Positions 942 to 8,737 of a DNA stretch of 27,011 nt are shown piece by piece. Under the pieces are notes generated by a model. The model was not told where the DNA came from. It worked only from the letters and a program-made list of their open reading frames with translations, and searched no databases. Both the position numbers and the translations under genes were made by a program. The number at the start of each line of letters is the position of its first letter. The first letter of the stretch is position 1. Origin of the DNA: a virus; the IMG/VR virus record IMGVR_UViG_3300042542_002585, positions 1-27,011 of that record. One strand, written 5' to 3'.

Positions 942-3103
942 TGTCTGTTCACTTTTACAACCGAATAGCAGCGCATTGTTGAGCCGTTTACCTTCCTTCT
1001 TACCTGTTCAAAACCCAAATTTTTCATTTCCATCCCCAACTTTCGAGTGTCAAAAATCCGCTGTTGGCTGTTTACCTCTAGATATATTTTCAATTCGGTA
1101 TTTGTTAAATAATCGCTATAATCACCATTTTGCGGAACACGAAAATATTGGTTTATTAATTCCGCTTCAAAATTAATTGCATTAAATTCACTACTATTTT
1201 CGTTTAATTGCAGTATGTCCTCACTCGAAAGGTGCCAATTGAACCCTGATTGGTAGAGGTCGTAGAAGGCCATGAAAAGGGCCGTTTTATCGATGGCGTT
1301 GTATGCCGGGTGATTGATGCCGAGCACATTAATGGGCAGGATTCGGCGGTTGCCTGTTGGATCTGAGATAAGGCCGAGGTCGTTGGTAGTGCCTGCTAAG
1401 ACGGCCAAGCGTTTCAAATCTCGGTGTGTGCGCCCATAAGGCAGGCGAATTGAGAATGACGCCTTACTAGTCAACTCCTTAAATCGTTTGGCCTCAAACT
1501 TGGATTTGCCCCCAAATTCGTCATCCATGATGATCAGTTTTTTTGTCAGCAAAATATCGTCATCCTTGCCCCCGTCGAGCTTAGACTCGGCGTAATAGTT
1601 GGCGAGTGGTTTGGGCAGTAGCCTGCGAAAAAACTCAGTTTTACCCGTATTTTGGCGCTCGCCTGCCAATACCAACACCAGCGGCGAGGTATGTCCGTAA
1701 ACGCTGGCAATCATTCCAACGCCCCAGTGAGTTAAGTATTTTGCAACGTGAGGCGTGGTGGTTTCGATGGTGGCGGCCAACTCATCGATGAGCGATTGGC
1801 TGCGCTGTACCGACTCATTGGCTTTGAGGAAATCCTCGAATGGGTTATAGTAGCGGGTGAGTTCCGAGTAAATAACCCTGCAGAAAAACTCAAAACTTAT
1901 CTTATTGTCTGTCAACTCACTGAAGCGCAAATACATCGTGTTTAGCGCCATATCGTCTAAAATTTTCGGTTTCGAGTTAAATAAAACTGAGCGATCCTCA
2001 ATATCTGCCGTGATTGTGTTGTAGTGCAGTTGGTGATTGTTTTGCAGATACAACTGGCACAACGCGACGGGCGTCTGACCTGTCAGCTGCAGCGAAACAT
2101 TAGCCTCAAATACTGCGGCGGCGGTTTCTGTGGCCTTTTCAACGTCCATGCCAGACAGCCGGGCAATCTCAACAACAGACTCCTGAGCACGCCCTTGCTT
2201 TTTGGCCATTTTTGCAATGTTCTCCAATTTCACAGCCTGCTGACTTTTCAACTCAACCCCCGCCTGTTTAGCGTAGTAATAAAAGGTGCCGATTGCAATC
2301 TTGCTCTGGCCTGTATCTCTGAGGCAATAATTATACTGCCTATCGGCCTTAATATGATCGTATTTGCTATTTTGGCCCGCAACCGCGTGGAAATACTCAC
2401 GGCCTCGCTCTCCAAACTCAGAAGCCAGTGCAAAGCCAATGTCTAAGTAATTTTTATAGGCCCCCTCTGTTAGATCATAACCGCCCCGGCAAATCCTATC
2501 TATAAGCTCATCAAACTCATTGCCAGTTAGCACAGTGTGCACTTGCTTTGGCTTAGCTTCCTTTTTCGGGTACTCCTTAAACGTCTTGCTTTGCTCGTTG
2601 ACATAAAGTAAGGGGTCGTATGAAAGGAACCGCAGGCGGCTTACATTCTTACAACTCTGATCAATCAGTTGCCCGTAATTGCGGAAATAATACTGTTTTA
2701 ACCCATTAAAGGCATCGAGGTGGCGCTCTGGCTCTATCTTAACGAGTGCTGCCAATCCATTGCCAGAAACGGATAGCAAAGCGGCAAAAGTATAGGGATC
2801 TTTTGCCAGTTCAGACTTCAGCCGAGCCACATCGTCTACAGCGTCAAAATCAATACAAATAAGCCCTGAGTGTTGGATGAGGTTTGCATTGCTTACATTG
2901 TCCCGAAAAGTACCCGAGATTGTAACCGCTGGAATCCGCTGCTTTGCCTCGGCCTGCTCATCTTTGCTTAACGCCTTGGTATTTCTGTACGCCTCTATTA
3001 AAGCCAAATGCTGACCAGATCGCACTAGGGCGAAATAATCAGCAATTTGGATAGTGTGGTGCTTTGCCGACTGTCTAATATTCGGCAGATAGGTTATTTG
3101 CAT
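938..3103 (-). CDS. VirE/BT4734-type primase-helicase
   Basis: A 721-residue multidomain replication protein. Residues about 55-175 match the BT4734/VirE N-terminal domain of the archaeo-eukaryotic primase superfamily, with the metal-binding Asp85-x-Asp87 in ICIDFD and an SGNG motif at 113-116. Residues about 200-285 resemble the PriCT-2 primase C-terminal region (GGYDLTEGAYKN, then YYYAKQAG). Residues about 470-640 are a VirE/VapE-family P-loop ATPase, with Walker A GERQNTGKT at 481-489, Walker B LIIMDDE at 523-529, and GNRR at 584-587. The protein probably primes DNA and unwinds it at the phage fork. It is full length, starts at an ATG overlapping the previous gene by 10 bases, and lies next to the TGTACA repeat array, which fits a role at a local origin. 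Confidence 0.88.
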   Translation of the reverse strand: MQITYLPNIRQSAKHHTIQIADYFALVRSGQHLALIEAYRNTKALSKDEQAEAKQRIPAVTISGTFRDNVSNANLIQHSGLICIDFDAVDDVARLKSELAKDPYTFAALLSVSGNGLAALVKIEPERHLDAFNGLKQYYFRNYGQLIDQSCKNVSRLRFLSYDPLLYVNEQSKTFKEYPKKEAKPKQVHTVLTGNEFDELIDRICRGGYDLTEGAYKNYLDIGFALASEFGERGREYFHAVAGQNSKYDHIKADRQYNYCLRDTGQSKIAIGTFYYYAKQAGVELKSQQAVKLENIAKMAKKQGRAQESVVEIARLSGMDVEKATETAAAVFEANVSLQLTGQTPVALCQLYLQNNHQLHYNTITADIEDRSVLFNSKPKILDDMALNTMYLRFSELTDNKISFEFFCRVIYSELTRYYNPFEDFLKANESVQRSQSLIDELAATIETTTPHVAKYLTHWGVGMIASVYGHTSPLVLVLAGERQNTGKTEFFRRLLPKPLANYYAESKLDGGKDDDILLTKKLIIMDDEFGGKSKFEAKRFKELTSKASFSIRLPYGRTHRDLKRLAVLAGTTNDLGLISDPTGNRRILPINVLGINHPAYNAIDKTALFMAFYDLYQSGFNWHLSSEDILQLNENSSEFNAINFEAELINQYFRVPQNGDYSDYLTNTELKIYLEVNSQQRIFDTRKLGMEMKNLGFEQVRRKVNGSTMRCYSVVKVNRQ

Positions 3104-3633: not shown

Positions 3634-4228
3634 TTTTTTCTAGTTTGTTAATTTGTCTTGTGATACTTCTTTTAATGCTTAATACTTCCCTTAATTCCTC
3701 GGGCAAGTTTTTGATGTTGTTGCGCCTCATATGTTCGTGGCGGTCGATGAGCTCGAGATTGTCCAGTGCGATATTGGTCTTGTTGCGGTCTTTGAATACC
3801 ACAAAAAAACCTTTAGGCACTGGGCCGTTAATGGCTTCCCACATCAATACGTGCACCAATTTAAACCCCTGGGCTGTCTTTTCAACCATATACCCATCCC
3901 GGTAACTACGGTACCCTATCGGCTTTGTGTTGTGCGGATTTTGCCCCTTCTTAAATTGGGTTTCAACTCCGCCCATCATTAGGCCTTTGGTGCCTTTATT
4001 CCAGCTTGTCATTCCCTTTTTAAATTGGGTTGCCGGGTGCCCTTTAAAATTGGCTTTGTAGTATTGATGCAAAAAGTCGGGGCTTTTGTTAACGCCAGTA
4101 TTTTGCTGTTTGTGGTAGATCTGCGCAACTGAGCAACCGAATCGCTCCGCCAAATCCTTTGCCATTGTTGTAGGGTATAGCTGCACAAATTCTGCCGTTT
4201 CGGCTTCAGTCCATTGCTTGCGTTTCAT
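3614..4228 (-). CDS. HNH endonuclease with N-terminal HTH
   Basis: A 204-residue protein. Residues 1-50 look like a DNA-binding helix-turn-helix (WTEAETAEFVQLYPTTMAKDLAERFGCSVAQIYHK). Residues 65-105 carry two TQFKKG repeats and a WNKGTKG motif typical of phage-encoded HNH proteins. Residues about 105-170 form the HNH_3-type nuclease: His126 in LVHVLMWEA, NGPVPKGFFVVFKDRN around 134-149, and NIALDNLEL followed by a C-terminal helix (EHMRRNN). Such genes are either free-standing homing endonucleases or site-specific nickases used by the phage. There is no sign of intron insertion around it. Its start overlaps the 64-residue gene by ATGA, so it is integrated in the operon rather than a recent insertion. 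Confidence 0.85.
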   Translation of the reverse strand: MKRKQWTEAETAEFVQLYPTTMAKDLAERFGCSVAQIYHKQQNTGVNKSPDFLHQYYKANFKGHPATQFKKGMTSWNKGTKGLMMGGVETQFKKGQNPHNTKPIGYRSYRDGYMVEKTAQGFKLVHVLMWEAINGPVPKGFFVVFKDRNKTNIALDNLELIDRHEHMRRNNIKNLPEELREVLSIKRSITRQINKLEKNGTQQN

Positions 4229-7076: not shown

Positions 7077-7288
7077 TTGTCAGCCCTCCCCTTATACATA
7101 CGTCGTTGCACAAGCATCTGCGTGAACTCATCAAACTCTGGGCGAAATTCATCGCGCTCAAATTTGTACGGCTCGGCTTCAGGTGTTTCAATTCTGCGCT
7201 TTTTGTTGCGGCGAATTACGTGAGCGCAGTAGGCTACCGCAATGGTAGCAGGCGCTAAAATGATTGGGTAAATAATATCTAAACTCAT
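7073..7288 (-). CDS. first gene of the leftward operon, membrane protein, 71 aa
   Basis: I chose the ATG at 7288 (MSLDIIYPIILAPATIAVAY) because it lies about 20 bases after the -7 box of the leftward promoter; the longer frame from 7339 would begin upstream of that promoter. Residues 4-23 form one membrane segment, followed by a basic stretch (RRNKKRR) and an acidic cytoplasmic tail (ETPEAEPYKFERDEFRPEFDE). A positive charge cluster right after the helix suggests the tail faces the cytoplasm. No family is recognised. Its translation-initiation region contains a ten-base stretch complementary to the hairpin downstream of the repressor gene. Confidence 0.7.
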   Translation of the reverse strand: MSLDIIYPIILAPATIAVAYCAHVIRRNKKRRIETPEAEPYKFERDEFRPEFDEFTQMLVQRRMYKGRADK

Positions 7289-7309
7289 AAATGTGGTGCT
7301 ATGTGGTTG

Positions 7310-7340
7310 CAAATATAAAGGCATTATCCACAAAACCAAA
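7310..7340 (-). promoter_or_regulatory. leftward early promoter (Bacteroidota type)
   Basis: On the minus strand there is TTTG at 7340-7337, a 19-base spacer, and TATATTTG at 7317-7310. This fits the Bacteroidota housekeeping promoter (-33 TTTG, -7 TAnnTTTG, spacer 19-20). Transcription should start near 7305, giving a leader of roughly 15-20 bases before the ATG at 7288. It lies just beyond the repressor terminator, so the leftward operon has its own start. Confidence 0.75.
7324..7332 (-). promoter_or_regulatory. perfect DnaA box inside the leftward promoter
   Basis: TTATCCACA on the plus strand (TGTGGATAA on the minus strand) matches the strongest bacterial DnaA box in all nine positions. 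It lies wholly within the spacer between the -33 and -7 elements, where a bound protein would block RNA polymerase. I noticed no other perfect copy in the window. The operon it controls encodes a DnaA domain IV-like protein. Confidence 0.65.
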
Positions 7341-7348
7341 CAATTTTG

Positions 7349-7381
7349 AAAAAAAAATGCCCCGAGCCGAAACCCGAGGCA
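7349..7381 (-). terminator. intrinsic terminator after the repressor gene
   Basis: On the minus strand a 9-bp stem (TGCCTCGGG with CTCGGGGCA, two G-U pairs) with loop TTTCGG is followed by nine T residues (7357-7349). The two wobble pairs form only in RNA of this strand; the opposite strand would have C-A mismatches. This fixes the direction as leftward, ending the repressor transcript before the leftward promoter. Confidence 0.85.
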
Positions 7382-7398
7382 GTTAGCACCACACTAAC
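7382..7398 (-). other. stem-loop in the repressor 3' UTR, candidate antisense RNA loop
   Basis: The minus-strand RNA can form GTTAG-TGTGGTG-CTAAC, directly before the terminator hairpin. The segment UGUGGUGCUA, spanning the loop and the 3' arm, is complementary at ten of ten positions to UAGCACCACA in the leader of the leftward operon, which lies 5 bases before its ATG. An additional G-U pair extends the duplex. It could regulate translation in trans; an inverted DNA repeat for a protein is the alternative. Confidence 0.4.
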
Positions 7399-7411
7399 GG
7401 CGCAAATATAA

Positions 7412-7588
7412 TCAAAGTTGATCGAGCGTGCGCTCCAATTTTTTTAGGGTTGCTAAACTTTTTGGCTCCCTCTTTTCCCAGTGAGTCAAAACGCACCGAT
7501 TTATGCCAGCCAAAGCACAAAGTTTCGTCAAGTTCACGCCTTTCTCAATTGCTTTTATCCTCAATTCGCTCACAATATTTTTATCCAT
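7412..7588 (-). CDS. minimal HTH repressor, 58 aa
   Basis: A 58-residue protein starting MDKNIVSELRIKAIEKGVNL. Residues about 18-45 form a Cro/CI-type (HTH_3/Xre) helix-turn-helix: LTKLCALAGINRCVLTHWEKREPKSLATLKKL, with the Ala-Gly turn and a recognition helix in NRCVLTHW. There is no C-terminal oligomerisation or autocleavage domain, so it is a minimal, Cro-sized protein and would not be RecA-cleavable. The longer frame starting further upstream would run through the promoter, so the ATG at 7588 is preferred. It is divergent from the recombination operon and ends in its own terminator. A repressor role is inferred from this context; it could also be Cro-like. Confidence 0.78.
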   Translation of the reverse strand: MDKNIVSELRIKAIEKGVNLTKLCALAGINRCVLTHWEKREPKSLATLKKLERTLDQL

Positions 7589-7593
7589 AGCAA

Positions 7594-7626
7594 CAAATTT
7601 ACAAAAAAAGCGATAAATTTGCAAAT
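7594..7626. promoter_or_regulatory. divergent promoter/operator region
   Basis: Only 40 bases separate the two divergent ATGs. A perfect 8-bp inverted repeat, CAAATTTA (7594-7601) and TAAATTTG (7614-7621), places a -7 box (TAAATTTG) on each strand. For the minus strand there is also TTTG at 7625-7622 with a 20-base spacer, a full consensus promoter for the repressor; the plus-strand box lacks a good -33. The 10-bp palindrome ATTTGCAAAT lies at 7617-7626. Predicted starts are so close to the ATGs that both mRNAs may be leaderless. Confidence 0.7.
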
Positions 7627-7628
7627 GT

Positions 7629-8393
7629 ATGATGTACCACACTGACACAAGCCGCGTCTCAAAGAGCGGCCTCGACTTAATTAATCGCGCTCCAGCACTT
7701 TATTACGAGCGCTATCTAAACCCCAACGCCTCACCGCAAAAAGAAACCCCCGCGCTAATCATTGGCTCCGCTGCTCATTGTGCAGTATTCGAGCCTCAAG
7801 AGTTCGGCAAACGCTATGCTGTTGCCCCGCATTGCGACCGACGCACAAAGGAAGGAAAAGAAATTTGGGCCAACTTCCTCGAGCATTCAAAGGGTTTGAT
7901 TCCACTGGATGCCGAAAGCGCTACAATGGTTGAGAGGATAATGGAAAGCGTCCGCGGTCATCGGACGGCGCAGTACCTTTTAAAAGACGGAATCGCTGAG
8001 CAACCCATTTACTGGAATGATGAAGAGACAGAAATTGATTGCAAGGCTCGCCCCGATTGGTTGACGCCTGACAACGTTATTATTGATTTAAAAACGACAG
8101 AGGACGCAAGCCCGCGAGGCTTCGCTCAGAGCGTTAAAAAGTACCGCTACGATGTGCAGGCTGCCTTTTACTCCGATGGGCTCGAGGAAGCCACAGGAAA
8201 GCCCTGTAATGGTTTCTTTTTTGTAGCTGTTGAAAAGCACCCGCCATATTTAGTTGGCTGGTATTTTATCGGCAACGAGGATCTAAAGGAAGCGCGCCAG
8301 AAATACAAAAAAAATCTAATGACCTACGGCTTTTGCAAGAAGTCGAACATATGGCACGGATATAGTGAAATAGTAACAAAGGTAATTTTATGA
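7629..8393 (+). CDS. PD-(D/E)XK exonuclease, RecE C-terminal type
   Basis: A 254-residue nuclease of the phage exonuclease family related to the RecE C-terminal domain (DUF3799/PDDEXK). Visible motifs are GSAAH with His50, an acidic residue in the QPIYW strand (Glu124), RPDWL with Asp143, DLKTT with Asp153 and Lys155, and the VQAAFY motif with Gln177 and Tyr181. These residues form the metal site. The enzyme would resect double-strand ends 5' to 3', producing single strands for the annealing protein two genes downstream. The N-terminus (SRVSKSGLDLINRAPALYYERYL) is typical. I chose the ATG at 7629; a second ATG follows immediately. The gene is complete and leads the only plus-strand operon. 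Confidence 0.88.
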   Translation: MMYHTDTSRVSKSGLDLINRAPALYYERYLNPNASPQKETPALIIGSAAHCAVFEPQEFGKRYAVAPHCDRRTKEGKEIWANFLEHSKGLIPLDAESATMVERIMESVRGHRTAQYLLKDGIAEQPIYWNDEETEIDCKARPDWLTPDNVIIDLKTTEDASPRGFAQSVKKYRYDVQAAFYSDGLEEATGKPCNGFFFVAVEKHPPYLVGWYFIGNEDLKEARQKYKKNLMTYGFCKKSNIWHGYSEIVTKVIL

Positions 8394-8737
8394 AAACCAC
8401 AGATTTAAGAATTGGTAATTTAGTATTGAGTAAAGGCGTTCCCGTTCAAATTGAAGAAATAATGTGGGAAACGGTGCGATATTGTTATGGTGAATTTCCA
8501 ATAGATTATATTCAACCTGTACCAATAACCGAAGAATGGTTGTTAAGGTTTGGTTTTGAGTTTAAGGTAGTGTATGGAAATAATTTTTGGACATTAAATA
8601 ATATTTTAATTTTTGAAGATAAAAATGGGAATTTTGAGTATAGTGTGGGGTTAAAAATACAATCAATACACCAATTACAAAACCTATACTTTGCTTTGAC
8701 AGGTAAAGAACTACAAACCCAATTTGATAAACTATGA
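8390..8737 (+). CDS. AT-rich cargo gene, MKTTDLRIGNLV family
   Basis: A 115-residue protein beginning MKTTDLRIGNLVLSKG, with PVPITEEWLLRFGFEF in the middle and IHQLQNLYFALTGKEL near the end. I recognise this as a small family that is widespread in Bacteroidota phages and prophages, without a known function. The base composition is clearly different from both neighbours: about 30% G+C in sampled segments against about 50% in the exonuclease gene, with a strong preference for A/T-ending codons. It nevertheless has ATGA overlaps with both neighbours. It looks like a transferred cassette inserted cleanly into a two-gene recombination operon. No membrane segment is visible. Confidence 0.8.
   Translation: MKTTDLRIGNLVLSKGVPVQIEEIMWETVRYCYGEFPIDYIQPVPITEEWLLRFGFEFKVVYGNNFWTLNNILIFEDKNGNFEYSVGLKIQSIHQLQNLYFALTGKELQTQFDKL

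Follow-up and report, generated by a model that had tools for sequence, protein, structure and literature searches.

The best-studied phage antisense RNAs (c4, sar, and OOP) come from enterobacterial phages, and the c4 RNA of P1/P7 is cut from its target's own transcript. The c4 RNA is a small phage RNA whose complementary bases probably lie in loops and which blocks translation around the ribosome binding site (PMC12197685); it has one mRNA target, ant. The sar RNA of P22, 68/69 nt long, base-pairs with a phage mRNA and hinders the initiation of translation (PMC12197685), and it is antisense to ant. The CI RNA of satellite phage P4 is a small RNA that keeps replication genes off via complementary sequences (PMC4825925); it arises by processing of a transcript that is not translated, and its effect is on transcription termination. 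The OOP RNA of lambda, a 77-nt RNA that controls a phage regulatory gene (PMC12197685), is the cis-antisense RNA of cII. A literature search with most subscription papers outside its scope returned no report of such a small RNA in Bacteroidota phages.

The window, the whole stretch of DNA analyzed here, spans 27,011 nucleotides and comprises positions 1 to 27,011 of the 27-kb virus record IMGVR_UViG_3300042542_002585. It encodes terminase, capsid, primase, and helicase proteins and a recE/recT pair, and its promoter boxes have the Bacteroidota-like form TAnnTTTG. Between a repressor candidate and the leftward operon, it quite probably contains an antisense small RNA (sRNA) gene whose product would block translation of both early operons (Table 1).

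The principle is already known from P1 c4, P22 sar, lambda OOP, and P4 CI RNA, and the predicted RNA belongs to none of these. Unlike c4, it has a separate box and terminator and targets on two divergent operons; its unit terminates before the leftward promoter and its rightward target lies on the other strand, so it does not share c4's origin from the target transcript. In contrast to sar, the RNA gene lies beside, not opposite, its several targets: the pairing arms of the hairpin and the leftward leader are separated by 82 nt on the same strand, and the unit lies outside the rightward gene. Unlike P4 CI RNA, it is a predicted primary transcript directed at translation starts, and unlike OOP, it would use short seed pairing with separate genes. 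What sets the locus apart is that the predicted RNA has a gene of its own next to the two divergent operons it would target, and that the seed is exchanged together with its target. The locus would extend the c4/sar/OOP principle to phages whose promoters are of the Bacteroidota type, with a compact RNA directed against the two divergent early operons together.

Table 1. Predicted sRNA gene, target sites, and neighboring features in the window.
Feature	Position	Strand	Basis or remarks
Predicted small RNA, ~49 nt	7350–7398	−	5′ hairpin GUUAG-UGUGGUG-CUAAC, terminator stem, U-run; conserved unit in 35 records
Predicted sRNA 5′ end (G)	7398	−	Inferred from the −7 box and the 4–5 nt box-to-start spacing given in PMC6847099
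Pairing (seed) hairpin GTTAGTGTGGTGCTAAC	7382–7398	−	Sequence GTTAG-TGTGGTG-CTAAC, 7398–7382
Intrinsic terminator	7349–7381	−	10-pair stem 7381–7358, then T-run
sRNA −7 box TATATTTG	7403–7410	−	No −33 TTG; 4 nt upstream of hairpin
Target site L TAGCACCACA	7292–7301	−	Leader of first leftward gene
Target site R GTACCACACTGAC	7634–7646	+	Codons 2–6 of first rightward gene
Repressor candidate, 58-aa Cro/C1-type helix-turn-helix protein	7412–7588	−	Pfam HTH_26, under cut-off
Repressor candidate −7 box TAAATTTG	7594–7601	−	Sequence
First leftward gene, 71 aa	7073–7288	−	N-terminus hydrophobic; no Pfam or PHROG match
Leftward operon promoter, −7 box TATATTTG	7310–7317	−	−33 TTTG at 7337–7340
First rightward gene, exonuclease VIII/RecE-like (DUF3799)	7629–8393	+	Family match
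Rightward operon promoter, −7 box TAAATTTG	7614–7621	+	Sequence

The hairpin, the terminator, and a ten-base complementarity to the leader of the gene starting at 7288 all lie on the minus strand where the original prediction had placed them. UGUGGUGCUA is the exact complement of UAGCACCACA at 7301–7292, 3 nt ahead of the ATG, and ten nucleotides of the predicted mRNA leader (~17 nt) are paired. The ten Watson-Crick pairs were correctly foreseen, but the run that includes G-U pairs is 12, not eleven. When the 18-nt hairpin is shuffled by mononucleotides, 25 of 20000 versions reach ten contiguous Watson-Crick pairs with the 30-nt leader. When the 44 gene starts of the window are ranked by duplex, 7629 comes first (−23.0; 13 contiguous pairs) and 7288 second (−19.0), and these two best partners are the first genes of both operons flanking the hairpin. 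The single leftward target proposed earlier pairs as described but is incomplete: the recE-like start at 7629, which had gone unmentioned, pairs at least as well, and by complementarity the predicted RNA is one with at least two targets. A possible further target is the second rightward gene (8390, MKTTDL), which has ACCACA at +6 (8396–8401).

We infer transcription of the RNA and its start site from the −7 box. This TATATTTG box is part of direct repeat D8, ten bases that recur in the promoter of the 7288 gene. Folded from the start that the box predicts, the RNA forms two hairpins and a U-run at −20.6 kcal/mol, with GUUAG/CUAAC as the minimum; no shuffle out of 200 does as well. If upstream bases are folded too, the hairpin of lowest energy becomes GCGCCG/UGGUGC. 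No Rfam family reaches its gathering score in the window, so no known RNA family model matches, and ARAGORN calls a tRNA neither in the window nor in eight loci. The unit has the intrinsic terminator expected of a trans-acting base-pairing sRNA gene, together with the complementarity to translation starts beyond chance that such a gene requires. The terminator probably also ends the repressor mRNA.

To our knowledge, Bacteroidota lack Shine-Dalgarno sites, and pairing around the AUG should therefore stop ribosome loading. From the Bacteroidota-type −7 box, transcription would begin at 7398 and yield an RNA of about 49 nt, consisting of the pairing hairpin and the intrinsic terminator. This RNA would pair with the start regions of two first genes, 7288 in the leftward operon for replication and 7629 in the rightward one for recombination. 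With the bases around the AUG covered, ribosome loading would be blocked and both operons would be held down beside the repressor. The region from about −22 to +20 of Flavobacterium starts has lowered structure (PMC6847099), and pairing across it would hinder initiation. The repressor mRNA, ending at the same terminator, may share the activity of the sRNA. Repression as the sign of this control and its timing are presumed, as is a role in lysogeny or immunity. Lysogeny itself is unproven because no integrase, tyrosine or serine recombinase, was found in any of 13 records (0/13 for each type), which may be fragments.

Box, hairpin, and terminator form a unit that is present in 35 records, the window included, and falls into two sequence clades: 20 records in clade 1 with GTTAG/CTAAC arms and 15 in clade 2 with ATTAG/CTAAT arms. 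Relatives were gathered by protein similarity and by pattern scans, some of which fixed the hairpin core by the search pattern itself; clade 2 was first met through the recE-like protein. The unit core is almost letter-perfect across the 35 records, while its flanks vary. Within the sRNA box, TA and TTTG are constant and the bases between them vary. The pattern TAnnTTTG occurs 4–6 nt before the hairpin in 35/35 units, against a contig background of 584 in 756880 positions. The −33 TTG is absent ahead of this box in all 35 units; the leftward promoter has a TTG 17–23 nt upstream in 33/33 readable units. The −33 element is likewise much less evident in F. johnsoniae promoters as described in PMC6847099. 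Without a −33 TTG, the sRNA promoter may be weak, or the RNA may derive from the repressor mRNA.

Pairing is complete in both stems across 11 distinct units (154/154 cells), and two stem pairs, one in each stem, change on both sides. The hairpin end pair changes in a compensatory manner between the clades (G-C/A-U), and in the L121 terminator a G-C pair is replaced by A-U, again compensatory. Clade 2 has a minimum-energy structure other than the 5′ hairpin. Five rows were dropped in reaching the 35: L115 and L133, chance coding matches that account for two of the 21 stretches in the viral hairpin scan; L192 and L202, chance matches in later scans; and L185, a truncated carrier. Four matches to the 17-base hairpin in host genomes were rejected, all lacking box and terminator.

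RNA-level control of the leftward start, as originally proposed, is supported by comparison across clades. Of the 35 units in both clades, 33 are readable at the first leftward gene, and every one of these carries ACCACA there, beginning between −20 and +9 relative to the ATG. The motif is present in 20/20 distinct first-gene start regions with this seed versus 0/15 without it; the seedless set counted 16, and its sole match, L041, is a truncated carrier. The site is kept although the first leftward gene encodes a different protein in L124, L186, L189, L191, L195, and L200. Three first genes (L124, L186/L194, L200) open with identical ATGAAAAACACCACATTAA and then diverge. In L124, a leader site is present on both the inserted and the displaced gene; in L172, L174, and L175, the displaced gene has none. 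It had been held that a change in one segment without the other would speak against pairing. Such change is seen in leaders AAGTACCACACTATG and AAACACCACACTATG with the hairpin unchanged, yet a register shift keeps runs of 12 and 10. The leader is unlikely to be protein-coding, as it contains one-base indels (CACATTTATG, CACATTATG).

The recE-like start reads TAC CAC in 32/32 distinct sequences (script pattern TA[CT]CA[CT]AC). In this gene, 13 of 121 conserved degenerate codons use one codon, codons 3 and 4 among them, whereas codon 5 varies (ACT/ACA/ACC). The hairpin end pair change from G-C to A-U coincides with C to T at the third base of codon 6. YHTD is also conserved in L183, with TACCACACCGAC, and no unit was found there. 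By the conservation of YHTD in L183 and the variation of codon 5, part of the recE match is coding. Pairing runs are longer at the sites than where ACCACA occurs elsewhere (135 places; Mann-Whitney p 1.7e-5 for the first gene and 2.7e-9 for recE), with no correction for kinship in these or the other statistics and with many contigs closely related. Of 23 first-gene ACCACA sites, seven run only 7 pairs, three of these being second sites beside a longer one.

Clade 2 has the widest set of sites. ACCACA is present at 50 of 252 distinct gene starts and the complement TGTGGT at 0 of 252, whereas the interior rate predicts 0.0115 per start. Two of the 50 starts belong to spurious ORFs that lie opposite the unit. 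It occurs in every member of 4/28 gene families and is tied first among 4096 hexamers. These families are the recE-like gene (+7), the MILYTT protein (+12), the MDYI protein (−22), and a small gene before primase (+5); further sites are found at the first gene by position and at 6/11 recT starts. At the level of sequence, this distribution shows a regulon. Because of the strand bias and operon-internal sites, mRNA pairing fits and DNA operators do not. Clade 1 has the motif at 19/357 starts and ranks it 23rd when tested alone, and a test pooled over both clades does not single it out (rank 60), so clade 2 is the only clade that does; the script at times took a longer first-gene start, which lowers the first-gene count in these tests. 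Relatives without this seed have ACCACA at 8/557 starts, below their own interior expectation of 0.0327.

Two further clades, of 3 and 20 loci, were found by a covariance model of the unit, searched over 71 loci, and by inspection. Clade 3 (L049–L051; E 2.5e-4 to 6e-4) has an unchanged box, a different RNA and terminator sequence, and the same location as in the window; its unit follows another gene, putatively helix-turn-helix-like. The clade 3 RNA finds its best partner in its own recE-like start in all three loci (21, 17, and 21 starts), and its first-gene pairing is broken by bulges. Clade 4 (L066–L080, L082–L084, L086, and L081) was missed by the covariance model and spotted by inspecting leaders. 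Its interval from recT to the first leftward gene contains box-like GATATTTG, an RNA, and a terminator rich in GC, and it lacks a repressor. Read by eye, its RNA AUUGUUGAU complements leader AUCAACAAU, and UCGUUGUUU complements AAACAACGA at the recT start.

In each of the four clades, a blind ranking of ORF starts per contig puts the first genes of both divergent operons first or close to it. Right/left ranks, followed by dinucleotide-shuffled RNAs as good per 1000, are 1/1 of 43 in the window (5/0), 4/3 of 26 in L196 (41/30), 4/1 of 16 in L191 (72/2), 1/2 of 20 in L050 (1/0), 1/1 of 19 in L049 (0/0), 2/1 of 22 in L069 (102/2), and 3/1 of 12 in L081 (100/2). The right targets of clade 4 are weak relative to shuffles (102 and 100 per 1000), and several of the clade 2 starts that rank above the first genes are regulon genes.

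The pairing sequence might belong solely to the repressor mRNA, acting as its 3′ terminus or as a fragment released by cleavage, with RNA control tied to repressor expression and no separate promoter. Clade 1 units other than L127 lie 13 or 15 nt behind the repressor stop and clade 2 units similarly close, no other terminator intervenes, and the −33 TTG is missing. This reading is nevertheless unlikely, given a box kept in every unit despite its variable middle bases and flanks, its retention with the hairpin behind a tRNA-like insert that parts repressor from unit in L127, and a similar unit in clade 4 without a repressor gene. For these reasons the sRNA is, on sequence grounds, most likely a separate gene with its own −7 box; the original prediction, which named the repressor mRNA tail or a processed piece as the source, is incomplete, and the tail could contribute too.

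In another reading, the repeats would serve as operators on the DNA, lying immediately after three promoters and bound by the helix-turn-helix protein or a different regulator. This is improbable, and the earlier alternative of an inverted repeat bound by protein is accordingly disfavored. In the window, a −7 box does shortly precede each of the three sites, the interrupted palindrome (17 bp) is operator-sized, and repressor and sites differ together between clades. Operators would be expected to share their arms and show no strand preference, but the common part is the asymmetric center ACCACA, gene starts show a 50 to 0 strand bias, clade 2 sites occur at operon-internal starts, and the hairpin has a terminator attached. 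Distance from the box end varies from 10 to 31 nt (second sites omitted), yet the sites stay within −20 to +9 of the ATG. It is highly improbable that coincidence and common descent produced a chance match to the leader and to a conserved protein-coding start. Codons 3–4 of recE do encode family-conserved residues and many contigs are close relatives, but three unrelated pairing sequences each rank their own first genes at or near the top, and the hexamer is unenriched in relatives without this seed.

Related phages keep the arrangement of the predicted sRNA gene while swapping its pairing sequence, which suggests an additional RNA-based off-switch for early genes. More speculatively, the early-gene RNA layer of Bacteroidota phages could be modular: the sRNA gene would stay fixed at the junction of two early operons while the seed and both operons' start sites are exchanged together, giving related phages different RNA specificities, as heteroimmune repressors do, and newly inserted first genes would join by keeping or acquiring a target site. 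The four sequence clades offer natural variation in seed and target with exact, short, testable pairs, and illustrate how an RNA regulon may be rewired across phages.

Phage records contain no DNA match to the region and no relative of the first leftward protein; relatives of the recE-like and terminase proteins are distant only. The repressor and recE-like promoters overlap back to back at 7594–7621 around a TTTGCAAA palindrome, a likelier place for a DNA operator than the hairpin of the unit. The site right after the leftward promoter is an insertion hot spot with differing small genes, several starting MKNTTL (L124, L186, L189, L191, L194, L195, L198, L200, and L049–L051). The L127 insert (about 3908–4037, minus strand) scores 36.3 bits as an Rfam tRNA with a long middle part, and ARAGORN does not call it. 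At 3055–3064 of the window, AAGCACCACA matches 9/10 target-site bases; it lies on the coding strand of the primase gene, about 40 nt into it. In the terminator stem (7358–7381), three G-U pairs are unchanged in 11/11 distinct units, seemingly beyond what a terminator needs.
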